A stretch of 22,010 nt of DNA from a virus. Positions 1,436 through 17,080 of the stretch are shown here, piece after piece. The DNA is taken from IMG/VR virus record IMGVR_UViG_3300044675_001067, positions 1-22,010 of that record; one strand, 5' to 3'. The position numbers were made by a program, and so were the translations under genes. How positions within the stretch are numbered: position 1 is the first letter of the stretch; every line of letters begins with the position of its first letter. Below the pieces are notes generated by a model. The model searched no databases. It had not been told where the DNA came from and saw only the letters and a program-made list of their open reading frames with translations.

Positions 1436-3769
1436 TTAACTGCGTGTGCCTTCAAAGTCTTGTACTTGTGGAACAGCCCCACCCAACGCTTTGTTACGCA
1501 ATACGTTGTACAGCACAGGGTCGGTTTCTTTGAGCAGTATTCCAGCGTCTTTCAAGAACGCTAAAGCCTCTTGTGCACTTGCTTTTGGATCGGCCTTTGC
1601 TTGCGCAATTTGTCTGAGCAACGCCATGTTCTTGGGGTCTCGCGCCCACTCCAGTGTTTGAATTTCGGCAGACGGCTTGTTGTAGTGCTTGCCCATTGCT
1701 TCGCGGTACGCGGCTTCGGACTTGGCTTTTTCTTCGGCTTGTTGCATGCCCAGCGTAGCAATACCGGCTTTGCCAACGTTGGTCATAAAGTGGGGCGAAT
1801 CGCCAGCCATCAGGTTTAAGCCCATCTTCAACAGCAAACTGTTCACATCAACGCCGCCTTGCTGAGATTCTGCTTTTGGCAACAAGTCTTCCAAACCTGC
1901 GGCTTGCTCGGGTGCGGGTGGTGGAGCAGGGTAGCGTTGAGCCAAGCGTGTTGCTTCGTCGGTGTACGCGCCAACAGGCGGTTCAGCCAAAGGTTCTGCA
2001 AACGCATAATCCGGAATACCCCCCACTTTATCTACGGCTTGCATGGTTGATAAACCTTGCGCAGTACCGGTCATCTTGGCTTGGTTCAACCGAGCAGCAT
2101 CTTGCGCTAAGGCAATTTCTTTGGCTGTCTTGTCAGCAATATTAGCAGTCTTAGTAGCGGCTTCAATAGATTGGCCCGCCCCTGTTGCAGCTTTACGGTC
2201 GGCTTCCAACTGCGCCATGCGACGGGCATTTTCAGCAGCAGCGCGAGTAGCGGCAGATGCCTCGTCAAGAACGTCCAAACCTGCTTTGGCCGGAGGCAAG
2301 ATGCGAGGTGTGTTTGCAATAGCGGCGGCTTGTTCCGCTTTTTGAATCATTTCAGCCGTAGGTTCCAGTCCTTTGGATATGGCAGACCCTGCTTTACCCA
2401 CTTTTGCAGCACCAGCAACAGGTGCCGTCCACCCGCCAAGGGCGTTCAGTGTGTTAGAAAAGTTGCGTTGAAACTCTTGGGGGATGCCCGCCTTGTCAGC
2501 CAAACTGCCAAAGTAAGTATTGGTGTCTTTGTACTCAGGCGCTTTAGAAGACTGGCCGGGAATTTGACTAAAAAGTGCTTCTTGGCTATCTTGTGCAACA
2601 GGAGGTGGTGCCGAACCAGTGACAAAATTTTCTACGTCTTGCATTTGTTTTTTGAACAGCGCATCTGCTTGAGCTTGTGTTCTTCCGCCAGAGGGGGCAG
2701 CATATGCAGGATCGTTCGCCCTGTTCAACGCGGAAATACCTTGATCTTGTGCCGCAGCAGGGGCGGCTTGTGCAGTACCAGTAGGAATTAATGAAGGGAG
2801 GCGTGTTTTACCTTCTGCCCATTGCGTAACATCACCAACACTTTTATTTTTAAAAATAGAAGCGTTGCTTTTGATGATGCTATTGCCTCGTTCTGGATCG
2901 GCTTTTTTAATCACGTCTTCTACAGACGCTTTAGGGTCGGCTGCAAGAACAGCGCGGCCAGTAGAGTCTCCCAGCACCCATGTAACGTATGCTTCGGAAG
3001 CAGACGGTTCGCGGCCTGTGGCGTTTTTAAAATTATCTGTGTTGCTGCGCAGCAATTTAGCCGCATTACGCACTTGTGTTTTAGCGTCGGCTCTGTCTCC
3101 GCCGCCCATTTTTTTCCACATTTCGTCAAGCAATTGCCCAGCGCCGTGAGCAGTTGATTTTGGGTTTTTAGCCGTGACTTTTCCTTGGCTTTCCACTTTA
3201 ATAATTTGTGACAGTACTGCGGGGTCAACGCCGTATTCTTGGGCGTATTTGTTTATGTATTCAGTAAGACCCCCTTCAACATAGCCTTTGTCAGCGTAAC
3301 CAACAATACCGCCTTCGGCAAAGTCCATGTTTGCCACTGGGAGCGTGGCAATACCTTGATCTTCAGGCAGCACATAGCCGCCTTCGGCCATGCCTTGGGG
3401 AGGCATTGGCCCTTGCGCCATCTGTTGTGGCGGCATGCCCTGTGGCGGCATGCCCTGTGGAGGCATCGGTGCCTGACCTTGAGGAACTTGAGGTGGCATG
3501 GGCGGCTGTGGGGGTTGGCCGATGCTTTGCAGAATCTGTTGAGAAATAGGCGGCTGTTGCTGTTGACCAGCCATCAGGGCCATAGCTTCTTGTGCATGTT
3601 TTTTCTTGTACTTGTCTGCTTCAGCAGCCAAGCCCAGCTTGATGGCGTCGTCTTGATTTGCAACTGCAAAAGCTTGCAATTGTTGCGAATTCATTTTCAA
3701 CAGTTCTACGCGCAAAGCGTCAATGCTGCCTGCGCCAATACCTGAAGTTCGTGGGCTGGATGTCATCAT
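1436..3769 (-). CDS. Virion-associated SLT-type lytic transglycosylase
   Basis: A 777-aa protein whose recognisable domain is lysozyme-like (soluble lytic transglycosylase) at about residues 167-290. It has YGVDPAVLSQIIKVESQG followed by STAHGAGQLLDEMW; E193 in KVESQG is the expected catalytic acid, and the HGAGQLL stretch corresponds to the usual G-A-x-G-L-x-Q region. Such domains in virion proteins cut peptidoglycan during DNA entry. Upstream lie a Gln/Pro/Met-rich region with a GMPPQ repeat (residues about 70-128) and three AEGG-like motifs (residues 128-167). The C-terminal 480 residues are Ala-rich and mostly helical. Start is ATG at 3769; a second ATG at 3766 fits the AAGAG ribosome site slightly better. 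The gap to the upstream gene is 5 bases. Its length and position among Gln/Gly-rich proteins suggest an internal ejection protein rather than the lysis endolysin, which is the M15 gene. Confidence 0.8.
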   Translation of the reverse strand: MMTSSPRTSGIGAGSIDALRVELLKMNSQQLQAFAVANQDDAIKLGLAAEADKYKKKHAQEAMALMAGQQQQPPISQQILQSIGQPPQPPMPPQVPQGQAPMPPQGMPPQGMPPQQMAQGPMPPQGMAEGGYVLPEDQGIATLPVANMDFAEGGIVGYADKGYVEGGLTEYINKYAQEYGVDPAVLSQIIKVESQGKVTAKNPKSTAHGAGQLLDEMWKKMGGGDRADAKTQVRNAAKLLRSNTDNFKNATGREPSASEAYVTWVLGDSTGRAVLAADPKASVEDVIKKADPERGNSIIKSNASIFKNKSVGDVTQWAEGKTRLPSLIPTGTAQAAPAAAQDQGISALNRANDPAYAAPSGGRTQAQADALFKKQMQDVENFVTGSAPPPVAQDSQEALFSQIPGQSSKAPEYKDTNTYFGSLADKAGIPQEFQRNFSNTLNALGGWTAPVAGAAKVGKAGSAISKGLEPTAEMIQKAEQAAAIANTPRILPPAKAGLDVLDEASAATRAAAENARRMAQLEADRKAATGAGQSIEAATKTANIADKTAKEIALAQDAARLNQAKMTGTAQGLSTMQAVDKVGGIPDYAFAEPLAEPPVGAYTDEATRLAQRYPAPPPAPEQAAGLEDLLPKAESQQGGVDVNSLLLKMGLNLMAGDSPHFMTNVGKAGIATLGMQQAEEKAKSEAAYREAMGKHYNKPSAEIQTLEWARDPKNMALLRQIAQAKADPKASAQEALAFLKDAGILLKETDPVLYNVLRNKALGGAVPQVQDFEGTRS
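3426..3470 (-). repeat. 15-bp repeat (two exact copies plus one diverged)
   Basis: TGTGGCGGCATGCCC occurs at 3426-3440 and 3441-3455, and a diverged copy at 3456-3470. On the coding strand the unit encodes the pentapeptide GMPPQ. It lies within the low-complexity N-terminal part of the transglycosylase gene and probably varies in copy number by slippage. Confidence 0.8.
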
Positions 3770-3774
3770 TTCTC

Positions 3775-5310
3775 TTATCCCATCTTTGAAAGTACAAGCG
3801 CCGACAGGCCGGATGGGCCACGTCGCTCTTCTCTAATCTCACCACCCTCGGCCTTGGCTGTTGGCGTGCCAAACAGATTGTTCAAGCTGTACCCAGTCAA
3901 GCCAGCACCGGCCACCTGCGACAACAGGCTAGGAGGGGCCGAGTAAACAGACTGAGTTCCCTGCTGAAGTGGCACACCGCGCAAAATGTTGGACATGTAC
4001 GAGGCTTGCTGGTACGGGAACTGTTGCTGGGTCAAGAAGTCCTGATACTGCTGGTTCAGAATGTTCTGAATTTGCTGCTGTTGCTGACCACCAAACTGAG
4101 CCTGCGCGTTGAGGTTGCTGACGTTTTGGCCGTACAGATTCTGACCAACGTTGGCCAAATTGCTGTAGCCCTGCATCCCTGCTTGCAAACCTTGCAGACC
4201 CAAACCTGCACCATATTGCTTGGATTGCTCTGCCAACTGTTGCATTTGCTGGTTGGTCATTTGATTGGCCAACTGCGCTTGCAGGTTTTGACCAGAGCCC
4301 AAGGACTGAACGCCCAGATTTGCTTGAAGGTTTTGATTGCCTACGTTGTAGCCCATCTGCTGGTTTGCCAAAGCCGCTTGCATCGCTTGCTGCGCGTTCA
4401 TACCGCTGGCTTGCAACTGATTGGCCATGTTCTGCACGTTGGCTTGCTGCTGAGTTGAAAGGTTTTGCATACCTACAGTCAGACCGGCTTGCTGATTGGC
4501 TTGCTGTGCTGCCAGTTGCCGTGCTTGGTCAGACGTGAACATCTGAGCCGCTTGGCTGTACGCTTCTTGGCTACCCTTGGACTGGATGTCCGACATTTGC
4601 TGAGACAGGTTGCGCTGGGCTTCTGCGTTCTCAATGGCTGATCGAGACCCACCAAAAGCACCGGCCTGTGCTTGGCGAGCGCCGCGTTGTGTGCCTGCAA
4701 TGTCGGCTTGGCGCTGTGCTTCCCGCTTGCCAATATCTACAACCGCTTGCTGGTATGGCGACATGTACTGATCGACAGCACCGGGAGAGGTGAAGTTCTG
4801 TGTGCCAACTTGTTGGGCTGGCCCCATCTGGGCGGCGTTGATATTCCCAACGGAAATCTTTTGTGCTGCCACATCGGCAGGCTCCGCCATCTGGAAGTTT
4901 TGCAGGGTTGGCGCAGCAACTTTTGTGTAGTTGAAGCTTGATGGGTCGTAGCCGTATTGACCGGCTTGCCCAGCTAAATTCTGAAGACCCGTAGCCGAAC
5001 TTGTAGAGTATGGGTTGTAACCCAGCTTTCCAGCAGCGGCATACGCATCTTTTTGCAATTGCGTAAATTGCGCTGTTCTGTCGCCCGTGTAGGGGGTGTA
5101 AGCTTTAAAGCCTGTCGGTGTTGGCTGAGCGCCAGCAGTACCGGGAGCAACGATTTTGCCCGCTGAGTCGCGGTAAACCATCTGCCCGTTCTTGTCTACC
5201 TCGTAGTCGTAAAGAGAGCCGCCAACCATGCCCAGCATTTGCTCGACATATGGCCGAGCGTAGTCAGGAATGGTCGTCGTATTTTGTATGACTTGTGTTG
5301 GTTCTGCCAT
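3775..5310 (-). CDS. Gln-rich internal/tail structural protein
   Basis: A 511-aa protein beginning MAEPTQVIQNTTTIPDYARP. Residues about 190-440 are extremely rich in Gln, Asn and Ala with almost no aromatic residues (for example AQQANQQAGLTVGMQNLSTQ), consistent with a long helical, possibly coiled-coil rod. The C-terminus carries EGGEIREERRG, another AEGG-like motif as in its neighbours. No enzyme motif is present. Translation starts at ATG 5310 behind AAGGAATAGAC, whose AAGGA overlaps the stop region of the upstream gene. Composition and position between the 225-aa protein and the transglycosylase favour a virion protein, probably one of the internal or ejected set. The exact role is not recognisable. 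The frame is certain; the role is an inference. Confidence 0.7.
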   Translation of the reverse strand: MAEPTQVIQNTTTIPDYARPYVEQMLGMVGGSLYDYEVDKNGQMVYRDSAGKIVAPGTAGAQPTPTGFKAYTPYTGDRTAQFTQLQKDAYAAAGKLGYNPYSTSSATGLQNLAGQAGQYGYDPSSFNYTKVAAPTLQNFQMAEPADVAAQKISVGNINAAQMGPAQQVGTQNFTSPGAVDQYMSPYQQAVVDIGKREAQRQADIAGTQRGARQAQAGAFGGSRSAIENAEAQRNLSQQMSDIQSKGSQEAYSQAAQMFTSDQARQLAAQQANQQAGLTVGMQNLSTQQQANVQNMANQLQASGMNAQQAMQAALANQQMGYNVGNQNLQANLGVQSLGSGQNLQAQLANQMTNQQMQQLAEQSKQYGAGLGLQGLQAGMQGYSNLANVGQNLYGQNVSNLNAQAQFGGQQQQQIQNILNQQYQDFLTQQQFPYQQASYMSNILRGVPLQQGTQSVYSAPPSLLSQVAGAGLTGYSLNNLFGTPTAKAEGGEIREERRGPSGLSALVLSKMG

Positions 5311-5319
5311 GTCTATTCC

Positions 5320-5997
5320 TTAAGCTGGAAGGTACTTGTCTGCGCGGCTGTTCTTGGCCACATTGCCTTTGCCAACGGTTTTGCCACGGGCAGCTTGGAT
5401 TCGATCCATCATCTTGTACAGCTTGCGTGCGCCTGCTTCGGTTGATCCATTGCCAATCTCAGAGACGATGCGGGCTGGAACAACAAACTCGCCATCAGCC
5501 AAACGAGCAGGCTCACTTTCGCCAATAGTAGCGGGGATGGAATCAGACACGCCGTCACCGGGGCCTTTGAGCAGTCGGCCACCATCAGAGTAGCTACCCA
5601 GATCAGACAAACCGCCTGTGTTCATGGACATGGCCATGCCGCCAGCGGCCAAGCTGGTGTTGCCTTTTATGTAAGCCACCATAGCTCGCAAAAGGTCGTG
5701 CGCTTTTTCGGTTTGATTTTTCTTTATTGCAGCATACGCAGGACGAACAAAGTCGGTATACAGCTTGTGGGAAATCAACGCACCTTTTGGATTGTTTTCC
5801 AGTTCTTTGGCAATTTTTGGTGAGTTCTTGTAGTACCAGTCAATTTCTTTTGAGCCTTCTGGGTGCTTTGCCATGTAGGCGTCGCGGAACTTGGCAAGCG
5901 TGTTCATCATATCGTCGTCATATTTATGACCCATATGCTTGACTGCGGCGGCTCCAATAAAACCGCCTTCTGCATACGCATTTCTTGTAGTTGCCAT
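5320..5997 (-). CDS. Phage virion-associated protein with GEFVVPARIV-type motif
   Basis: A 225-aa protein. The N-terminus contains AYAEGGFIGAAAVKHMG. The middle (residues 30-110) is helical and charged. Residues 145-200 hold a pattern often seen in phage internal or structural proteins: GPGDGVSDSIPATI, then LADGEFVVPARIVSEIGNGS and a helical EAGARKLYKMMDRI. Family function is not established to my knowledge, and no catalytic residues can be named. Start is ATG 5997, sharing one base with the stop of the upstream gene (TAATG) behind a strong GGGAGG ribosome site, so the two are translationally coupled. The shared AEGG motif and immediate neighbours place it with the internal-protein group. Confidence 0.7.
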   Translation of the reverse strand: MATTRNAYAEGGFIGAAAVKHMGHKYDDDMMNTLAKFRDAYMAKHPEGSKEIDWYYKNSPKIAKELENNPKGALISHKLYTDFVRPAYAAIKKNQTEKAHDLLRAMVAYIKGNTSLAAGGMAMSMNTGGLSDLGSYSDGGRLLKGPGDGVSDSIPATIGESEPARLADGEFVVPARIVSEIGNGSTEAGARKLYKMMDRIQAARGKTVGKGNVAKNSRADKYLPA

Positions 5998-8027
5998 TAC
6001 ACAACCTCCCCATTTTCACGGATAAATTTTGTGTCTGAACCCAGAGTGTCAAACAGACCCAGCCAGAACTTTCTTAGCGGGGTAAACACCCAGCCCCATT
6101 TGTTTTCGCCGTAGTACCACTTTGCGTAATGAACAGCGGGGTCAGCAAAAGTGAGGACGACAAACGCACTGAACAGTTTTGACTTTCTCATCAAAGGCAC
6201 AAACACTTCAGCCAATTTGTAATAGCCGCGCTTGTTTTGTTCGGTGGCTTTTTCATCGCGGTAACGTCGGACGACGCGATCCATAGTGCCGTTGCCGTAG
6301 CGGGCTTCTAGCATGATGAAACAACATCCGCCGCCTCCACCACCACCGCCACCTCCGCCCGTACCCCCCACTCCAGCAGTCCCGCCGGGGCCCGTAACTC
6401 CAAAACCGCCGCCACTACTTACGCCAAGACCGGGAGCGCCGGGAGCGCCACCAGTAGTTCCACCACCAGTAGTTCCACCACCAGTAGTTCCACCACCAGT
6501 AGTTCCACCACCAGTAGTTCCACCACCCGGCACTGCGTAGCCACCACCACTGTTTACGCCAAGAGCAGGAGCGCCCGGCGTACCTCCAGTAGTTCCACCA
6601 CCAGTAGTTCCTGTAGCCGCAGCGGACTGTCCGCCCATAGCTGAACTTACGGCATTACCGGGAGTGGTTGATGGCACGCCGGGGCCGTTAATACCAGACA
6701 AGCTTGCAAGGCCAGAAGTCGTCACCCCTGTATCGCCCGGCGTTGGTACGCCCTCAACTTGCGTAAAGTTAGGCGAATCATTAAAAGTTAGGCTGTCAGA
6801 TATAGGCGCAGGCTCTCCTTGACGAGGGCCGTCCATTTTGTATGCAATATAACCCAGCGTATTTGTAATAGCATCGCCCATTTTGCTCAACGCCAACGAC
6901 GGCACTGCCAATGGGGTTATCTTCCCTCCGCCATCAACCAGACTGGTGGGGAGCCCGCTTGTGCCGGGTGTTTGATTGCCTTGGTTGCTGCTATATCCAC
7001 CGCCTGTAGGAGCTTGCACAACAGAAGTAGGTTTATCCTCAATATCTGTTGCATCAGTAGTATCCATCCGCGCAGGAATCCATTTTGTCGTGCCGGTTGC
7101 CGTGTCAAACTCGTAGTGGCCCTCGTATGACGGAGCCTTGGTAGTTGTTTGTGTAGGCGTGGTGGAAGTCTTGCCCATCAAAAAGTCATAGGCATCTTGC
7201 GATGTCATGCCGCCACCAGCAAAGGAAACAGCGCCGCCCTTGGCCAAGGCAACAATACCGCCATTGGCTGCTTTATACGGTGTACCGGGTGACCACTCTG
7301 TATCAAACCAGTTCTGCTCTCTGGAACCAATATTAGCTTCTGGTTGGCGAACTGTGCGCCGCATTTGGTATGGCCGGATGTAGCTTGGGCTTTGCGCAGG
7401 AACTGGCGTCTTGGTTTGCACCGCCATGTCGGCCATGATGGGGCTCATGGCCATACCAATCTTGCCGTAGTTGTTCTTGAAGAAGTCCATTGGCGCATCC
7501 GCCGCCGCTCTGGCACCAGCAGTTAAGCTGCCCATTGGAGAAATAGCTTCCATAGCAGGAGCTGAATTCCGAGCCAGCAAAATATCCCGTGCGCTTGAAT
7601 CTGCGCCAAGGGTGGCGGCAGTTGAAGCATTTTCAGCACCAAGCGTTTGCGCGGCAAGGGAAGCACCCGTGTCCATAAAACCAGCAGTCAAACCAGCACC
7701 GCCGTAGGCACCCAGACCAGCCATCAAACCTTTTTCCAAACTGCCAGTACGAGCTGCTTGCAAACCGCCAATACCCAACCCAATCATTGCTGGATTGATT
7801 GTGCCGCCTGAGAAATACGAGATGCCCGCGCCAATCAAGGTGGGCAACAACTTGTCCAAAACGCCCGCTTCGGGCAGTCCAGTTTCTGGGTTAATGGTCA
7901 GTTGATGACCATGCGCCATAGCCAAATCACTAAGGCTTTTTAATTCACGCGGCGACATGTGAACAAGGCTTGTGTCGGGGCCACGGCCTTGGTCAGAAAG
8001 ATGTTGAGCGGCAAGCTGTAGACTCAT
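5997..8027 (-). CDS. Gly-rich virion protein with C-terminal CFI-box-like domain
   Basis: A 676-aa modular protein. Residues 55-135 are Gly/Ala-rich and hydrophobic (LLPTLIGAGISYFSGG, GLGIGGLQAAR), like membrane-active ejection proteins. Residues about 250-275 carry NGGIVALAKGGAVSFAGGG, the AEGG-type motif of this block. Residues 440-550 are a Gly/Thr linker with five exact GGTTG pentapeptides. A run of about 12 Gly then leads into a distinct C-terminal domain at residues 568-676 that starts CCFIMLEARYGNG and continues VVRRYRDE, LAEVFVPLMRKSK and a Trp/aromatic amphipathic tail. A glycine-rich spacer plus C-F-I plus R-x-Y-R-D matches the CFI-box-CTERM domain known from bacterial proteins, from memory. 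Start ATG 8027 follows CGAGGCAAAT. The virion role is inferred from position. Confidence 0.72.
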   Translation of the reverse strand: MSLQLAAQHLSDQGRGPDTSLVHMSPRELKSLSDLAMAHGHQLTINPETGLPEAGVLDKLLPTLIGAGISYFSGGTINPAMIGLGIGGLQAARTGSLEKGLMAGLGAYGGAGLTAGFMDTGASLAAQTLGAENASTAATLGADSSARDILLARNSAPAMEAISPMGSLTAGARAAADAPMDFFKNNYGKIGMAMSPIMADMAVQTKTPVPAQSPSYIRPYQMRRTVRQPEANIGSREQNWFDTEWSPGTPYKAANGGIVALAKGGAVSFAGGGMTSQDAYDFLMGKTSTTPTQTTTKAPSYEGHYEFDTATGTTKWIPARMDTTDATDIEDKPTSVVQAPTGGGYSSNQGNQTPGTSGLPTSLVDGGGKITPLAVPSLALSKMGDAITNTLGYIAYKMDGPRQGEPAPISDSLTFNDSPNFTQVEGVPTPGDTGVTTSGLASLSGINGPGVPSTTPGNAVSSAMGGQSAAATGTTGGGTTGGTPGAPALGVNSGGGYAVPGGGTTGGGTTGGGTTGGGTTGGGTTGGAPGAPGLGVSSGGGFGVTGPGGTAGVGGTGGGGGGGGGGGCCFIMLEARYGNGTMDRVVRRYRDEKATEQNKRGYYKLAEVFVPLMRKSKLFSAFVVLTFADPAVHYAKWYYGENKWGWVFTPLRKFWLGLFDTLGSDTKFIRENGEVV
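6450..6524 (-). repeat. Five perfect copies of a 15-bp repeat
   Basis: The plus-strand unit ACCAGTAGTTCCACC is repeated exactly five times without interruption and encodes GGTTG on the minus strand (residues 502-526 of the Gly-rich protein). Two further imperfect copies lie at about 6584-6613, with a duplicated flanking segment (GAPGAPGLGVSSGGG versus GTPGAPALGVNSGGG). Identity at the base level, including third positions, points to recent slippage or unequal recombination. Confidence 0.9.
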
Positions 8028-8061: not shown

Positions 8062-8760
8062 TCATGTTGGTAGCGCCGACACAAATGTGATTGACCCAAT
8101 AGCAGAGGGTACTGCGGGGTACGGCATGGGAGTTGTTTGTGCTGCGCGGTAGTCGATGTAAATCCCTGTTGCACCGCCAGAAGTGGCGGCTTGGTTCGTT
8201 CCCCACCACAATCCAAGCGTATCCCCAGCGTCTAACTGGAAGACCACCTCTGAGTACCCACATACAAACGTTGGGACTCCTGCACTTTTACGCGCAGCAA
8301 CAGTAAAAACAGTAGAAGAATCCGTAATATCGGCTGCCGAAGTTGCTCCGTTTACCCGCAACCAGACGACTGCGTCATGCGCAGCGTTGTCGTTGTTGGC
8401 AAACTGGAGGCTGTACGTGATCTTGTAAATACCCGCAAATTCCGCTGTGGCAGTGTTGCCTGCGTTCAGCGTAAACCCATTCCCCTGTTCCAGCGTATCC
8501 CACTGAATGATAGTTGGTGTATCTGCCGCTGTTGCGTACTGAATGGCGTTATCGGACGCAGCAATAAACGGGAACCGCACCCCAGAAATGCCGCCCGAAG
8601 TCGATAGTTGCCCAATAATGTTGTCAAGCTGGTTGAAGTACAGCCGCAAGACGTTGTTCAACTGGTTGACGTAGTTCTCATCGTACTCAGACGTAGCCAC
8701 AGGCAGGCGCGGGGCAACAACCCTATTGAGTTCATACTCTGAAGTTACAACGTAACTCAT
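8062..8760 (-). CDS. C1q/TNF-like beta-sandwich fibre or receptor-binding protein
   Basis: A 232-aa protein. Residues 30-52 (VNQLNNVLRLYFNQLDNIIG) look like a short trimerising coiled coil. The rest is a beta-rich globular domain with the C1q/TNF-like pattern: TIIQWDTLEQGNGFTLNAGN, then AEFAGIYKITYSLQFAN, then VVWLRVNG, VFQLDAGDTLGLWWG and a final IYIDYRAAQ strand. Such trimeric jelly-roll heads cap many phage fibres and bind receptors or neighbouring virion proteins. No transmembrane or signal segment is present. The ATG at 8760 overlaps the stop of the nozzle-like gene by 4 bases (ATGA), so it is co-translated with it. The fold is inferred from sequence pattern, not from an alignment, and the binding target is unknown. 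Confidence 0.68.
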   Translation of the reverse strand: MSYVVTSEYELNRVVAPRLPVATSEYDENYVNQLNNVLRLYFNQLDNIIGQLSTSGGISGVRFPFIAASDNAIQYATAADTPTIIQWDTLEQGNGFTLNAGNTATAEFAGIYKITYSLQFANNDNAAHDAVVWLRVNGATSAADITDSSTVFTVAARKSAGVPTFVCGYSEVVFQLDAGDTLGLWWGTNQAATSGGATGIYIDYRAAQTTPMPYPAVPSAIGSITFVSALPT

Positions 8761-11294
8761 CGTCTGCCGTCCGGTCTGATGTCAATCCGAGGAGCGCCAA
8801 GCTGCCACTGGACACCAATGTCGCTGGACGTGATCTTCATCTGCATCTGACGGCCACGAATCCGGATGTACAACTGACCGGTGTATTCATCCACATTGAT
8901 GACCGATGGCGCGGAGCCGTTGTAGGTTACACCCGCATAACCACTTTGCGTAACACCTGAGCCTGAGTTGTTCAGCCCTTGCAGGTACATGGTCACGGCT
9001 GGTGTAGTGCCTCCAGTGGAGCCTCGGAAGGTCATGTCTGGGAGCATGCGGTAGACGAAAGCAAAGTTGTGCCCATCACCAATGTCAAACTGTGCGGACG
9101 TGATCGAGGCCGCAATTGGCAGGGTGGTACCCGTCTCGTTGTCGTCTACGCCTGACTCTTGGTTAACGATGTTGTAACTGTATGTCGCAGCAATCGGGTT
9201 ATCCCGCAAGCCGGTATCCAGCCAAGCAGTGCGCCCCATCGTGCCGTACATCCAAATGTCTTCGGCGTAGTTGTAGATGACGTACTTGTCCACAGTGTTT
9301 GAACTGGAGGAGCAGTAAAAGAACCAGACCTCGTTGAAGCCTTCGTTTGTGCTGGCAAACACTTGGTCAAACTGAAGCTGGTTGATGTCGCTGTAAATGT
9401 ACTGACGCAGGTCACAGCGCAGGGTTTGCACACGGCCATCGTACTTGTAGAACTTGTCCACACCCATCCAGTAAATAACGCCGGAGGCCATTGCTGCGGC
9501 ATTTGGGCTGGCAATTGAGACATTGTCTGCAAGCAACTGAGTACCCCACACATAAGGCGGGCCAAGGTATTGGAGCGAGTACAGGGATGAATCCGTCCAG
9601 ACCACAATCTCTTGGCGGCTTTGCAGTGTGGTCACGATTTTGGAACCGTGAGAAAGACGAGCGCTACCGGCTTGGTTGGTGATTGCCGGGTACCAAGTGG
9701 TCAAAGATTCTTGGTCTGACCAGCGGATGAGCATTGGATCAAGCGTAGTGCTGTCGTAGTCATTGGTGCCAAACACAAGAACAAACCTGCTGGCATCTGA
9801 GACGGTGAACGTGTTCTGGTACAGGGGTGTGTAGCCGTCTGCGCCTGATAAGCTGCTCAATGGGACGCCGCGCACGGACAGCCGCTGTGTCCCAGACTGG
9901 GAACCAGACGTGTTGACCATTGTCAAGGCCGACATAGTAGAAGACGCAACTGCCGCGCCAGCACTCACAGAATAAGTGCCTGTGCCACCGGTGCCCGTGC
10001 CTGTAAGCGACAAAATTCCCAGATTTGTAGTCAACCCACCGCCGTAGAACACGGTCATACCGGCCACCAATATACCGTCAACAGCAGTCACGTTCAGCGT
10101 GTTTGCACCCGAACCGCTACAAACAGCGGTCATTGTTCTGGTTACTGGGCTTGCCGTGGTCGTCAAGTAGAACGTGGTGGCGGTCAGGTAGCTGGTGTAG
10201 TACAGGGTTCCAACGGTCAAACCTGTTGGCAGTGCGCCATCTGTCTCAAACATTATGGCGGTCTTGTTGGGCAGATTCAAAGATGTGCTGACCACAGCAG
10301 GCGTTGCAATTGTGATTGTGGCCGCTGGGGGTGTGTAGCCAATTGTGGCGTTCCAGTAGTACAGCTCATCGCCGCGAGGGCCGTAGATCAAGTCTTGGCC
10401 CCAGTTCGTTTGGTTCCAAATCCGGATGGCCTCAGTAGAGGATATACCAATACCCCAAGGGCCGGAGCCCCAGAAGCCAGCACCCCAGCCGCTTTGCGGG
10501 GAAGCCGCTGCCACACCGGTTTGAATTTGGTACACGGCGTAGACTGTGCCGCCACCTGCGGCTGTTGTGGATGAGGCTTTTGCCGTGGCTGTGTGGATGC
10601 CTGTTTGGCCAGAACCAACCGTGCTGATGGCCGTGCCGCCAGAAGTCAGTGACAACTGGAAGGTGTACCCCGATGTGTTGACCACATAGTAAGAAGTGCC
10701 CGCCACAAACGGGTCAGGCAGCATCCCAGTCGTGGTGAGAGACACCCTGACGTCGTTGGCCAACTTGTACTGGGCCGTAAATACAGCGGGGTTTGCGATG
10801 GATATGGCGACCGTTGAAGTCAGCGGGATTGTGTATGTGGTGCCGCTTGCCAGTGTGAGCTGGTATTCACCAAGGATAGTGATGCCGCCTGCTGCTGTGC
10901 TGCCTGTGAAAATTACAAAGTCGCCATCAGAAAAGCCACCAGCCGCGTCGGTTACCGTGACAGTGGACGACCCGCTGGTTGTAGCAAACGGATTTGTCAG
11001 CGTATTCAGATCGCGCACAGGCGTGATGTCGTAATACGCACCGCCGTTCTCAATGTAGAACTTCAGGTTTGTGCCCACGCCCAGCAGGTTTTGGAAGCCA
11101 AGCGTCACCCAGTTCCACAAAGACCGGCACACACCCAAGAACGTGGCCGAAGAGATGCGCTCCCAGCCGCCAATCTTCTCAGGCGTGCCTTGGCGGAACC
11201 GCACCTTATCGGATTCATACCAACCACCCTCATTGGTGTACCTCGTGTTCTCACGATTTACACCGGGTTTCAGTAGAATTTTTTGTAATGGCAT
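8757..11294 (-). CDS. Tail nozzle-like protein (P22 gp10 / T7 gp12 type)
   Basis: An 845-aa beta-rich protein beginning MPLQKILLKPGVNRENTRY, followed by GGWYESDKVRFRQGTPEKIGGW, a start I associate with phage stabilisation or nozzle proteins. The propeller-like parts are at residues about 1-100, 255-330 and 460-845 (IYGPRGDELYYWN, VVWTDSSLYSLQYLGPP). Three Thr/Gly-rich insertions interrupt them: residues 105-240, 325-390 and 392-455. P22 gp10 and T7 gp12 close the tail tip after packaging. This protein is larger than the roughly 470 residues of P22 gp10, the excess fitting the insertions. The gene follows the endolysin stop by 4 bases and lacks an obvious ribosome site. A beta-propeller tail protein is fairly likely; the exact P22-type assignment is less certain. 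Confidence 0.65.
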   Translation of the reverse strand: MPLQKILLKPGVNRENTRYTNEGGWYESDKVRFRQGTPEKIGGWERISSATFLGVCRSLWNWVTLGFQNLLGVGTNLKFYIENGGAYYDITPVRDLNTLTNPFATTSGSSTVTVTDAAGGFSDGDFVIFTGSTAAGGITILGEYQLTLASGTTYTIPLTSTVAISIANPAVFTAQYKLANDVRVSLTTTGMLPDPFVAGTSYYVVNTSGYTFQLSLTSGGTAISTVGSGQTGIHTATAKASSTTAAGGGTVYAVYQIQTGVAAASPQSGWGAGFWGSGPWGIGISSTEAIRIWNQTNWGQDLIYGPRGDELYYWNATIGYTPPAATITIATPAVVSTSLNLPNKTAIMFETDGALPTGLTVGTLYYTSYLTATTFYLTTTASPVTRTMTAVCSGSGANTLNVTAVDGILVAGMTVFYGGGLTTNLGILSLTGTGTGGTGTYSVSAGAAVASSTMSALTMVNTSGSQSGTQRLSVRGVPLSSLSGADGYTPLYQNTFTVSDASRFVLVFGTNDYDSTTLDPMLIRWSDQESLTTWYPAITNQAGSARLSHGSKIVTTLQSRQEIVVWTDSSLYSLQYLGPPYVWGTQLLADNVSIASPNAAAMASGVIYWMGVDKFYKYDGRVQTLRCDLRQYIYSDINQLQFDQVFASTNEGFNEVWFFYCSSSSNTVDKYVIYNYAEDIWMYGTMGRTAWLDTGLRDNPIAATYSYNIVNQESGVDDNETGTTLPIAASITSAQFDIGDGHNFAFVYRMLPDMTFRGSTGGTTPAVTMYLQGLNNSGSGVTQSGYAGVTYNGSAPSVINVDEYTGQLYIRIRGRQMQMKITSSDIGVQWQLGAPRIDIRPDGRR

Positions 11295-11298
11295 GGCG

Positions 11299-11766
11299 TC
11301 AGGCTACAAGTCCGGGGAGATACTGTGTTTTACCAGCTACCTTGGTCGCGGTCAATTCCTGCTTTTTCAAGTTATCTGGGTCGTATGACACATGAACCCA
11401 GCCGCTGTCAGGAATGCCGGGGGTGTAGAACTCCAGAATCAACTGGGTGTAGTCCAGATTATCCATGATCCACTGCGCCAAGTCAGCGTTTGCTACGCCG
11501 GGAATCTCTATATCGGCTGCTCGGCCAAGGCAATGGTCTGAGGACTTTGAGCCTCCGGTAGCTTGGTTGACGGCTGGAGCACGGAACCCTGAGTTCACCT
11601 TGACACCCTTGCCAAAGTGGTCACGCACAGGCTGGAGGACTTTCTCGCACAGCAAGCGCAGATTCTCTGTCTCGGCTTCGCCGGGGGTGTTATCCAGATC
11701 ATTGCGCAGCGCAGTGTCGGATTTGGTCAGTTCGTGGAGGGAGAAGTTAGCTGTCAATTGAGTCAT
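11299..11766 (-). CDS. Peptidase M15 endolysin
   Basis: A 155-aa zinc peptidase of the M15 family (D-Ala-D-Ala carboxypeptidase or L-alanyl-D-glutamate endopeptidase type), which cuts peptide stems or crosslinks of peptidoglycan. Visible motifs in order: F8-S-L-H-E-L, V58-N-S-G-F-R, then SSDHCLGRAADIE with zinc ligands H78 and D85, and DSGWVHVSY with probable catalytic D120 and zinc ligand H125. No signal peptide or transmembrane segment is present, so export would need a holin. The ATG at 11766 overlaps the Rz stop by 4 bases and sits behind GAGGAAAATGA. The length is normal for single-domain phage endolysins of this family. It lies directly downstream of spanin and holin-like genes, completing a lysis cassette. 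Confidence 0.92.
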   Translation of the reverse strand: MTQLTANFSLHELTKSDTALRNDLDNTPGEAETENLRLLCEKVLQPVRDHFGKGVKVNSGFRAPAVNQATGGSKSSDHCLGRAADIEIPGVANADLAQWIMDNLDYTQLILEFYTPGIPDSGWVHVSYDPDNLKKQELTATKVAGKTQYLPGLVA

Positions 11767-12230
11767 TTCATTTTCCTCAAGGTTTCGTATTGGTCGATGC
11801 AGGCGTTGAGCTTGCGGATGGCTTGGTCTCCGTCGGTTGTGATTGCGATAAGAGCTTCAGCAACCGATCTGTCAAGTTCGGTTCTTGTTTCTCTGCTATC
11901 TCCGGAGGCAGCGGCGGCAGTACCGGCGCTTGATACGGCGCACTCGGTTTTAACAGGGATGAACAACCGACGCTCACCAGAGGCAATATCAGCACGAAGC
12001 TTGTTCTCCTTAACTTTTGCAACATTGTTGGCCTTTCTCAAAGTCTGTGCATATGTCTGGGCAACCTGACCCATACGCTGTTCTGCTTCCCGTGCCTTGG
12101 CATTCAGGGCTGCAATTTCAAGCTGCTGGCGCTCGTACTCATTTTGTTCACCGCTAAAGTACCCAGCACCAAAACTGCCCAGAACCGCCAAAATGATGCC
12201 AAGTATGACGTATGGATTTAACAAGCTCAT
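11763..12230 (-). CDS. Rz: Rz-like i-spanin (inner-membrane subunit)
   Basis: A 155-aa protein with one N-terminal transmembrane helix at residues 6-26 (YVILGIILAVLGSFGAGYF). A periplasmic, charged helical region follows (residues 28-85, EYERQQLEIAALNAKAREAE), then an Ala/Ser-rich stretch and a second helix. This is the architecture of Rz-type i-spanins, which bind an outer-membrane Rz1 lipoprotein and fuse the two membranes at the last step of lysis. The assignment is strengthened by a lipoprotein frame lying entirely inside this gene, the classic lambda arrangement. Two cysteines (in KTECAVSS and LNACIDQ) might form disulfides, as in some dimeric spanins. Its start overlaps the holin-like gene by 4 bases, and its stop overlaps the endolysin start. 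Confidence 0.85.
   Translation of the reverse strand: MSLLNPYVILGIILAVLGSFGAGYFSGEQNEYERQQLEIAALNAKAREAEQRMGQVAQTYAQTLRKANNVAKVKENKLRADIASGERRLFIPVKTECAVSSAGTAAAASGDSRETRTELDRSVAEALIAITTDGDQAIRKLNACIDQYETLRKMK
11777..12025 (-). CDS. Rz1: Rz1-like o-spanin lipoprotein nested inside Rz
   Basis: An 82-aa frame completely inside the Rz gene, in a different frame on the same strand. The N-terminus MLQKLRRTSFVLILPLVSVG precedes C21, a signal-peptidase-II type sequence; the lipobox VSVGC is slightly unusual in having Ser at -3. The mature part is Pro-rich (APYQAPVLPPLPPEIAE), typical of Rz1. The protein would be anchored in the outer membrane and pair with the Rz periplasmic helix. The start ATG has a GAGAAAGG site 6-7 bases upstream, which argues that it is a real translation start rather than chance. 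The frame ends 14 bases before the Rz stop. Automated annotation usually misses such nested genes. Confidence 0.83.
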   Translation of the reverse strand: MLQKLRRTSFVLILPLVSVGCSSLLKPSAPYQAPVLPPLPPEIAEKQEPNLTDRLLKLLSQSQPTETKPSASSTPASTNTKP

Positions 12231-13832: not shown

Positions 13833-14132
13833 TTATTCTGTTGTCCAAGGCACGCCTGTGGCAGTCACAGGGTTCTTCTTCAATTCAATCTGAGCCGCCA
13901 AAGAAGCCTCTGTTGCGTCCTTATCCACACCATTAGCCCAAATCCAACCAAGGACTTGTTCTTGTGTCAGGTCGGCATAGTCCACGGTGGGAGTGCCATC
14001 AGACCATGAGCAAGTGGCGTAGATAGAGGCTGAATGCTCACCATCAACTGCTGTGGCTTGCCAGTGGGCAGTGGTTACGAAACCATCGGCGGTGTTGCGG
14101 TCAAGTTGGGAGATTGTCCAAGTGGTGGTCAT
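13833..14132 (-). CDS. DUF7936-like phage protein
   Basis: A 99-aa soluble protein. It starts MTTTWTISQLDRNTADGFVT and continues with a beta pattern (AHWQATAVDGEHSASIYATC), then a helix-rich half containing YADLTQEQVLGWIWANGVDK. This combination of TWTI-QL-RNTADG and LTxExVLGW matches, from memory, a widespread phage family annotated DUF7936, often encoded next to tail fibre genes; its function is unknown. ATG 14132 overlaps the fibre stop by 4 bases (GCATGA) and has AAAGG upstream, so it is translated together with the fibre. A fibre-associated or assembly role is suggested only by position. Confidence 0.75.
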   Translation of the reverse strand: MTTTWTISQLDRNTADGFVTTAHWQATAVDGEHSASIYATCSWSDGTPTVDYADLTQEQVLGWIWANGVDKDATEASLAAQIELKKNPVTATGVPWTTE

Positions 14133-17080
14133 GCTGTACCTTTCAATGCGGCGATTTCTACTGCTTGTGCGTCAACGATGGCCTTGAGTTCTTGGATGGC
14201 GGCTGTCAGTGTGGCAACCAAGAAGCTGGTGTCGATGCCTTGGTAGACAGGATTTCCTTCAGCGTCTACTGCGTCTTTTTCTCCAACCACGCACTCTGGA
14301 ACAACTGCTTGCAATTCATGGGCAATAAAGCCTTGGCTTTCGCTATTGTCAGCATTCCACTTGTAGGTGACGGGCTTGAGTGCAGCAACCTTGGCAAGCG
14401 CACCAGTCATGGGCTGGATGTCGTGCTTTAAGCGATAGTCTGAGGAAGTTGAATAAGTTGTTGCGGATGTTGAGCAATCAATAAAGCCTACGTTGCTAGA
14501 GCCCGCACTATTATTGAAGTTAACCGCTCTATATCCACTATTTGCTTCTGGCCTAAACGTCATTCCGTGAGACGTATTGTTGGCAACAAAAAGACTAAAA
14601 CGTGAGTTGGTTCCATAAGCTGTCGTAGTCCCCACCAGCAAGTTACCGCTGGAGTCGATGGTCATACGGGCAATGCTGTTTGTTACAAAACGCATTGAAT
14701 TGGCTGCGTGGTCATATCCAACTTCACCAATATTTGCAGCGTCAGTATCCCCAAAGTTAATTCTAACTTGTGAAGTGTTTGGGCCAATAAGCGTTAAATC
14801 ATTGGCAGTGGCGTTTGCGCCTGTAATCCGAGCCATAGCAAACGTGGACGATATTGTCGTAGCACCTGCTTGAGCTACATCTAATCTATAAGTTGGCGAA
14901 GTCGTACCAATCCCCACATTACCAGAGGAGTCGATTGTCATCTCAGCTTCTGACCTTGCAGTGCTGTTGGTGCTAAATGACATTGCGTTTGTAGAATGGT
15001 CGTACTTAATAAAACCACGATATTCTTCAGCGCCAGAAGTTCCATCAGCAAACTGCAAATAACCAGCAGTTGCGTTGCTTGTGTAAATAGCTAAACTTGA
15101 ATCACCAGTTCCAGAGCCGACGATTGCGTAAGCAGTTGAGTCAAAAGCGGTGGATGTATTGCCAACAGTTAGCTGACCGCTTGCATTAAGCGTCATTGCT
15201 TGGGTGAAGCTGATTGTGTTCCCTGCTGTGCCTGCGGCGGCGGTGAACCACGAGTGAACGCCGCTTAATTGCGTATAACGAGTTGGCGCAACACCTGTAA
15301 CGTAGTATGTCCAAGTATTTGCGGCGCTTTCGTAACAGTTAAAGTTCAAGCTAGTTGAGCCGTTTGCTTGTTCGTTTAATGACGCATAACCAGTAGTTCC
15401 TAACTGAAAGGCTCTGGCTCCAGATTTCCAAGCACTCGGAGTAATCCCCAAGCCGAGGTTGCCGGAGGAGTCGATACGGGCGCGTTCTGTGGCGTTACCT
15501 GTGTTTGAACCGCCACTTGTGTAAAACGCCAAAGAAGTAGACGTGTTTCCCGAAGACTCACTAAGCGCTTGAATTGCTGCGTGTTGATTTGTGCTTGAAA
15601 ATCCGTTTGCCACAGAGAATGAAATTCCACATCCATTACCTGTTCCTGAAGTGCTGTTGTAGAGCCTCATTCCAGCGTTGTTTGCCGCCGTGACAGTCAT
15701 GTCTAATTTATAAGCAGGAGAACTCGTCCCAATACCCAGACCTGTGCTGGTCAGGCGCATTTGTTCGGAGTTGCTGACGGAAAAAATGGCTATGCCTCCC
15801 GTTGCGTTCAGGTTGAAATTTATACCTGTGCCGGTTTGCAAATCCATACGCGATGCCGTTCCAGCGTATCCAAGGTAGCCCTTTGCGCCCCCACTATCAT
15901 AAAACCGCAAATACCCTTGGCCCGTGCTTGAAAAATCGCCAGTGCTTTCCAGCTTTAATTGTTCACCTGAAGACAGCAGGGTCAGCTTGCTCCCATCAAA
16001 CGTCAGCGCAGACCCCGTGGTCAGTACTTTGCTGCCGTTCAGGTAGGCCACGCCGTTGGCTGTGCCGCCGTTCAATGTAACCGTGCTTGAAGTTGTCAGC
16101 GTGGTGAATGCACCAGTTGATGCTGTTGTCGCACCAATAGACATATTATTGATAGTGCCAACACCTGTGGAAGTAAGCGCCAGCGTGGGTGTGTTACTTG
16201 CCGTGAGAGTGATTAGATTGGTGTAAGCTGTCCCGTCTACATCATAGGCAGCAAGAGACAAAGTATTGGTGGCTGTCTTAGCTGATTTAAGCTGAGTGCC
16301 AGTTACATAAGAAGCTGCTTGTGTAATGGTGTCTGTATCAGCGTCACCAATTGTTGTGTTGCCTGTAGAAGACAACGTAGTGAATGCACCAGTTGATGCT
16401 GTTGTCGCACCAATAGACATATTATTGATAGTGCCAACACCTGTGGAAGTCAATGCAAGTGTGGGCGTAGTGCTGGCAGTTAGTGTGACTAAGTTTGTGT
16501 ATGCTGCACCGTCTGTGTCATAAGCAGCAAGGTTTAACGTATTGGTAGCTGTCTTAGCTGATTTAAGCTGAGTGCCAGTTACATATGAAGCCGTTTGGGT
16601 GATGGTGTCGGTATCAGCATCGCCAAGAGTGGTGTTTCCTGTGACAACCAAATTGCCGTTGACGGTAAAGTTACCAGTGGTGGCGCTATTGCTGCTAATA
16701 CGGATAAAGTCTGTTCCGTTCCACGCTACAACAGCCGACTCACTGACAGCCAAGGTCACGCCTGTGGTTGGGCCAACGCCACAAATTTTTACCGTGTAAA
16801 CAGCAGAGGTGTTGATGACCGTGTAAATCTTTGACTGCGCAGGAGCCGTGATGGTTATGTTTGCCGAAGCAGGTGAACACAACAAAATAGCCTGACGGGA
16901 CTGATTAGCTGAGCCTGTGGTGGTAGTCAGCGTGGTGTTGGCTGTAATTGTCTGAGTACCAGCAATTGCTGAATCAAGCAAAGAGGTAATACTGTTGTTT
17001 ACGGTGTCGCCCCATGTTCCTGACAATTCGCCTGTGACGGGAAGAGCCAAGCCCAAAAGTGATGTGTATGCTGTCGTCAT
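14129..17080 (-). CDS. Large tail fibre with C-terminal S74 intramolecular chaperone
   Basis: A 983-aa fibre. The N-terminus (YTSLLGLALPVTGELSGTWG) is the kind that attaches to the virion. Residues 142-325 contain two near-identical 92-residue units (DADTDTITQ, SYVTGTQLKSAKTATNTL, INNMSIGATTASTGAFTTL). Residues about 430-850 hold repeated IDSSGNxGIGTTSPxYxLD-type motifs typical of phage fibre shafts. The C-terminal ~108 residues are a Peptidase_S74 chaperone: SSDYRLKHDI with probable Ser880/Lys885 dyad (same spacing as endosialidase S911/K916), then YKWN, SQGFIAHELQAVVPE and a final coiled coil. These domains trimerise the fibre and then cut themselves off. Start ATG 17080 follows TGAGGTAACAAC and overlaps the previous stop. 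Receptor binding is inferred. Confidence 0.9.
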   Translation of the reverse strand: MTTAYTSLLGLALPVTGELSGTWGDTVNNSITSLLDSAIAGTQTITANTTLTTTTGSANQSRQAILLCSPASANITITAPAQSKIYTVINTSAVYTVKICGVGPTTGVTLAVSESAVVAWNGTDFIRISSNSATTGNFTVNGNLVVTGNTTLGDADTDTITQTASYVTGTQLKSAKTATNTLNLAAYDTDGAAYTNLVTLTASTTPTLALTSTGVGTINNMSIGATTASTGAFTTLSSTGNTTIGDADTDTITQAASYVTGTQLKSAKTATNTLSLAAYDVDGTAYTNLITLTASNTPTLALTSTGVGTINNMSIGATTASTGAFTTLTTSSTVTLNGGTANGVAYLNGSKVLTTGSALTFDGSKLTLLSSGEQLKLESTGDFSSTGQGYLRFYDSGGAKGYLGYAGTASRMDLQTGTGINFNLNATGGIAIFSVSNSEQMRLTSTGLGIGTSSPAYKLDMTVTAANNAGMRLYNSTSGTGNGCGISFSVANGFSSTNQHAAIQALSESSGNTSTSLAFYTSGGSNTGNATERARIDSSGNLGLGITPSAWKSGARAFQLGTTGYASLNEQANGSTSLNFNCYESAANTWTYYVTGVAPTRYTQLSGVHSWFTAAAGTAGNTISFTQAMTLNASGQLTVGNTSTAFDSTAYAIVGSGTGDSSLAIYTSNATAGYLQFADGTSGAEEYRGFIKYDHSTNAMSFSTNSTARSEAEMTIDSSGNVGIGTTSPTYRLDVAQAGATTISSTFAMARITGANATANDLTLIGPNTSQVRINFGDTDAANIGEVGYDHAANSMRFVTNSIARMTIDSSGNLLVGTTTAYGTNSRFSLFVANNTSHGMTFRPEANSGYRAVNFNNSAGSSNVGFIDCSTSATTYSTSSDYRLKHDIQPMTGALAKVAALKPVTYKWNADNSESQGFIAHELQAVVPECVVGEKDAVDAEGNPVYQGIDTSFLVATLTAAIQELKAIVDAQAVEIAALKGTA
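16105..16656 (-). repeat. 276-bp tandem duplication within the fibre gene
   Basis: Two direct units of 276 bp (16105-16380 and 16381-16656) encode a repeated 92-residue fibre module. The first 70 bases of each unit (16105-16174 and 16381-16450) are identical, and a stretch near GTCTTAGCTGATTTAAGCTG is also shared. The rest has diverged mostly at synonymous positions. Confidence 0.88.

Follow-up and report, generated by a model that had tools for sequence, protein, structure and literature searches.

A mobile 109-residue C-terminal module of phage virion-region proteins, remotely related to the CFI-box

The 676-residue protein and a probable gene split

The window, meaning the whole stretch of DNA that was analysed, is a virus record of 22,010 bases; its features are listed in Table 1. 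The last 109 residues of the 676-residue protein (residues 568–676) form a module that begins CCFIMLEARYGNGTMDRVVRRYRDE / CCFIMLEARYGNG and finishes FIRENGEVV, directly followed by a TAA stop. An earlier, sequence-only reading of this DNA had described a terminal domain of this length, with a CCFIMLEA start and the motif VVRRYRDE, behind some 12 glycines; domain and motifs are all present, and the run comprises 11 consecutive glycines (residues 557–567). An antisense proline-rich open reading frame (6313–6540, plus strand) was discarded as the reverse strand of this linker. The sequence GGGGAGG (6000–6015, minus strand), a plausible ribosome-binding sequence of the 225-residue gene, lies within the codons for the conserved NGEV tail of the module.

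Table 1. Positions of genes and features in the window
Feature	Position	Strand	Basis or remark
777-aa protein with SLT transglycosylase domain	1436..3769	-	gp16-like ejection protein by domain
511-aa protein	3775..5310	-	weak match to DNA ejection protein phrog_4287 (E 0.003)
225-aa protein: N-terminal CFI-box (GGFIGAAAV) and C-terminal SDSIP/GEFVVPARIV domain	5320..5997	-	downstream half of split gene
C-terminal domain SDSIP/GEFVVPARIVSEIGNGS (GPGDGVSDSIPATIG...GEFVVPARIVSEIGNGS)	5323..5649	-	highly conserved
CFI-box (NF041770) match	5767..5961	-	profile search; 40.8–42.8 bits, above cut-off 40
TAATG stop-start overlap linking 676-aa and 225-aa genes	5995..5999	-
676-aa protein: N-terminal ejection-region part (MSLQLAAQHL...), Gly/Thr-rich linker, 109-aa module	5997..8027	-	ORF translation
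109-aa module	6000..6326	-	CFI-box-like over first ~67 residues; conserved tail FIRENGEVV
11-glycine run	6327..6359	-	immediately ahead of Cys-Cys
845-aa virion structural / 'stabilization' protein	8757..11294	-	phrog_3287
M15 endolysin and Rz-like spanin genes; S74-capped tail protein	11299-12230 and 14129-17080	-

The adjacent 225-residue protein itself matches the CFI-box-CTERM profile at residues 13–76 (40.8 bits, E 1.4e-10), with the conserved Cys replaced by Gly and the box in an N-terminal rather than C-terminal position. The sequence-only reading, which stopped short of this gene (5997–5320), overlooked both this genuine CFI-box and the gene split described below. Relatives of the 225-residue gene are encoded in 595 viral stretches, most of the best 80 aligning to the 5323–5649 part only; weak matches also fall among tape-measure families and proteins of cyanophages and Caulobacter phages.

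Three sister phages (L090, L089 and L277) carry one fused gene, comprising linker, CFI-box and C-terminal domain, that is equivalent to the two genes of the window, in the order 845-aa structural gene, 232-aa gene, fused gene, 511-aa gene. All three fused proteins align with residues 13–225 of the 225-residue protein. Upstream, L090 matches the first 99 residues of the 676-residue protein and L089 its residues 87–326; the N-terminal part is syntenic with that of the single-gene form in these two, while the N-terminal part of L277 is different. The fused proteins bear a canonical CFI-box (GCFLTTAAV) directly after the Gly-rich linker, and it is exactly at this joint between linker and CFI-box that the window has the 109-residue module and its stop, the downstream gene beginning in the TAATG overlap. 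Given this position, the gene was probably split by insertion of the cassette: the simplest reading is that, in the window lineage, the cassette entered between the Gly linker and the resident CFI-box and left two overlapping genes, although fusion by deletion in L090, L089 and L277 may have occurred instead. The case illustrates low-complexity linkers as a point of entry into genes for modules of this kind.

Conservation, distribution and kinship of the module

A scan of IMG/VR with the window domain alone recovered 160 viral stretches encoding a relative of the whole domain, and further scans seeded with diverged members added more; the domain thus stands well clear of chance. Among 151 sites read, 149 encode 109 residues ending at the stop, and the remaining two are shorter and lie at the ends of their loci; every full-length copy (149/149, from IMG/VR contigs and two Roseobacter phage records) is thus exactly 109 residues long and flush with the stop codon. 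Across 71 distinct copies, with identity to the window copy as low as 61%, 34/109 columns were invariant, including the second Cys (the C of CFI), YG, V-V-R, Y-R, R-G-Y and the tail F-x-R-E-N-G. Synonymous differences far outnumbered non-synonymous ones (dN/dS about 0.04–0.08; medians 0.036–0.082 by divergence class). The module was present once in each of 27 module-bearing records (31 records checked).

In the phage collection, the module was found only in Roseobacter phages CRP-345 and CRP-13, whose hosts are Rhodobacteraceae and whose carriers are proteins of about 1,200 residues encoded between the portal and coat genes; CRP-13 belongs to a group with morphogenesis modules of the HMO-2011 type (PMC8528129). 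A 'class I SAM-dependent methyltransferase' considered as partner in CRP-345 was rejected, being the overlapping next gene. A search of 84,980 cellular species genomes, which required exact short motifs, yielded no true match to the module and leaves the proposed 'capture from a host gene' without a cellular relative of the 109-residue form. Two cellular matches (L085/L086) were set aside: one lies within a glycosidase-like protein, its similarity stopping after CCFIMLEA, and the other is a short frame lacking the rest of the domain. PADLOC returned nothing for the module.

The module had been likened to the CFI-box-CTERM domain, and the profile search proposed to check this gave a divided answer. 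Against NF041770 (NCBIfam, curated cut-off 40 bits) the window module produced no match at E≤10 and its best relative scored 17.5 bits; by the NCBI curated cut-off the module is not a CFI-box member. Sub-threshold matches were nevertheless obtained in 17/32 relatives (best E 0.0022), and alignment of the module to 26 cellular-type CFI-boxes by hhalign, over 67 columns starting at C-F-I, gave a probability of 94.8 (single-comparison E 4.9e-8) and a score of 43.5, compared with a mean of 11.3 (sd 2.3, maximum 20.2) in 200 column-shuffled controls. Alignment was weak to four phage CFI-boxes alone (probability 5.5), and reached 60.5 with the mixed set. The profile comparison supports the module being a remote homologue of the CFI-box over its first ~67 residues; what stands of the earlier resemblance is kinship, and not membership. 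For the last ~40 residues, ending FIRENGEVV, no counterpart was found in the CFI-box.

The AF2 model of the module has five helices (pLDDT 79.8, pTM 0.70, with low pLDDT over the first 10 residues), and the AlphaFold model of a canonical phage CFI-box (pLDDT 89.7, pTM 0.80) has the same number in the same succession, but no convincing match was common to the Foldseek searches with the two models. Those with the module retrieved a 69%-identical viral protein of 1,208 residues and a 20%-identical viral protein of 433 residues (TM 0.72, E 0.022), neither with a named function, and sequence and fold searches of the PDB yielded chance matches only, with no solved structure alike. The module is a phage-specific, extended and mobile relative of the CFI-box that no searched family library covers above threshold.

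Exchange among unrelated partner proteins

A first clustering of the partner proteins joined unrelated sequences through their low-complexity linkers; when this was redone with masking, the parts upstream of the module fell into 18 classes without detectable mutual similarity, some of them singletons or fragments at contig ends. Among them are the window and CRP types, Gln-rich coiled proteins, a DUF4815 tail protein (related to phrog_358) and a tail-like class, and the carriers are mostly virion- or ejection-region proteins. Their positions in the virion gene map differ: ejection region, the interval between portal and coat, DUF4815 tail protein. The ten residues ahead of the Cys-Cys pair were at least 60% Gly/Ser in 119/152 copies, and a few copies were preceded by a hydrophobic Gly/Ala stretch instead. 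The earlier description of a C-terminal cap behind a low-complexity linker on virion-region proteins is confirmed.

On the tree of the module, partner class changes 21 times, compared with a minimum of 17 possible for 18 classes. Monophyly of the window partner class on this tree was marginally rejected (p-AU 0.045), and partner class 4 showed no significant departure from monophyly (p-AU 0.366). A trace of exchange was seen in L033, a close, 95%-identical relative whose module DNA was only 71% identical overall. In 60-bp bins, the N-terminal part of the gene was 88–100% identical in nearly all bins, the module bins dropped to 57–77%, most of the residual CFI-box region stood at 72–88%, and identity was back at 95–100% over the final ~280 bp of the gene that follows; segment replacement by recombination leaves such a pattern. 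The module is mobile, having passed between phages as one unit with its own stop codon.

One partner (L248:4639–6327) is a tail-like protein in which a HINT/intein-type domain (residues 217–362) lies between the N-terminal part and the linker and CCFI module. As the last residues of the HINT domain are VHN and the next is Lys, cleavage seems likelier than splicing.

Possible roles and comparison with known systems

The reading favoured here, at a rough probability of 0.42, is that the module is a cassette of tailed phages, CFI-box-derived with a C-terminal extension of ~40 residues, that is recombined onto virion proteins and serves them as a host-side docking or effector end. Recombination would move the cassette whole, stop codon included, to various virion-region proteins (ejection-region, portal–capsid interval and DUF4815 tail proteins), usually where a Gly/Ser linker ends. 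Carried from the virion by its partner, to which a flexible tether joins it, the folded, basic five-helix module, with its conserved Cys at the tether and fixed C-terminal tail, would then dock onto a conserved component of the host while the genome is being delivered or shortly afterwards. Because the genes of the partners lie at several distinct sites among the virion genes, a common binding partner is more readily pictured as a host component than as a part of the virion. Proteins of the ejection region usually diverge fast, yet the module is nearly frozen on unrelated carriers, which points to a common, constrained target. A precedent is T7 gp16, in which a short C-terminal end is required for infectivity (PMC8954989).

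The module might instead be an assembly domain, a virion docking element or intramolecular chaperone comparable to the Peptidase_S74 cap, which would pack Gly-rich proteins into the particle or keep them there. Like S74 caps it is strictly C-terminal, strongly conserved and swapped among diverse virion-region proteins, and the window phage also encodes an S74-capped tail protein; a part in assembly or as a chaperone would likewise be in keeping with strong conservation and a capping position at the C-terminus. On the other hand, no conserved virion partner is obvious for a module whose carriers vary both in their place among the virion genes and in type of phage, and it resembles neither S74 nor any known chaperone in sequence or fold; a Pfam search, Peptidase_S74 profile included, gave no match. 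An assembly function is a possible explanation, but a doubtful one.

The sequence-only reading had likened the domain to a 'sorting or anchoring module', a role in which the Cys-Cys end and amphipathic helices would fix the partner to the host envelope. Several partners (L065, L073, L075, L248 and L252) do have Cys-Cys 0–13 residues after a hydrophobic Gly/Ala stretch, and aromatic and basic residues could bind membranes (median net charge +6). However, most copies follow a Gly/Ser run, hydropathy reveals no transmembrane-like stretch in the domain (maximum KD19 1.27; tail FIRENGEVV), and among the partners of cellular-type CFI-boxes are cytosolic-looking ones (an Mrr nuclease carrying a WYL domain, an HNH endonuclease, TPR proteins and a cold-shock protein), a range that does not resemble that of a surface-sorting signal. 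No paper naming the CFI-box was found in a literature search. No basis was found for the earlier label, and anchoring is unlikely. Least probable of all is that the conserved Cys behind the linker serves to sever the module from its partner, by self-cleavage or otherwise: the second Cys is indeed invariant in the 71 copies, 91/122 complete partners have no other Cys and the linkers are exposed Gly/Ser runs, but no catalytic dyad is recognisable, the residues ahead of the Cys vary freely (Gly, Ser, Ala, Leu, Pro), and Cys-poor partners may just reflect virion proteins generally, the 511-, 777- and 225-residue products of the window also being Cys-free.

A further proposal is tentative: that the module is a host-acting effector domain, exchanged as a cassette among unrelated tailed phages (short-tailed ones and ones with DUF4815-type tail proteins) and delivered at the end of whichever virion protein is exported. 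By analogy, and just as tentatively, it could play on virion proteins the part that exchangeable C-terminal tips play on polymorphic effectors. Small, soluble-looking and with both ends known to the residue, the module offers a direct route to finding its target.

Several known systems bear comparison. Peptidase_S74 intramolecular chaperone caps are mobile, strictly C-terminal and common to diverse phage tail proteins; they share no sequence or fold similarity with the module, whose partners are not mainly tail spikes. In HINT/PT-HINT polymorphic proteins, as in L248, a linker and C-terminal module follow the HINT domain, an arrangement that may recall proteins releasing a C-terminal effector. 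Unlike in those systems, this organisation is found in a single protein among ~18 partner classes, and the module matched no toxin family.

A further comparison is with CFI-box-CTERM itself, which is widespread in bacteria and archaea, for which no described function was found, and to which the module gives a phage context. Among cellular-type boxes, one on the Haloquadratum walsbyi plasmid PL47 (L178) caps the Mrr-type nuclease with a WYL domain, beside another restriction endonuclease, and another (L282) caps the HNH endonuclease; on Acidovorax and Denitratisoma plasmids (L181, L186) small CFI-box genes sit just upstream of a Dna2/Cas4-type nuclease, with an M48 protease close by and the order repeated on different conjugative plasmids. 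Phages carry CFI-boxes too; the records of ctYwJ313, L090 and L279 have no 109-residue module. In ctYwJ313 (MW202701) a Gly-rich linker precedes a CFI-type domain on a virion-region protein encoded between portal and capsid genes, as with the module, although its box is canonical (57.4 bits), and in L090, L089 and L277 the same succession of linker and CFI-type domain stands at the position syntenic with the window. CFI-box-CTERM and the module both start at C-F-I, continue with YG, R-x-x-R-D and Y-Y in equal order, lie C-terminally after low-complexity linkers and are predicted to form five helices in equal order; the module differs in lacking an SP motif, in its C-terminal extension of ~40 residues with the conserved FIRENGE tail, in its fixed length of 109 residues and in a distribution confined, so far, to phages.
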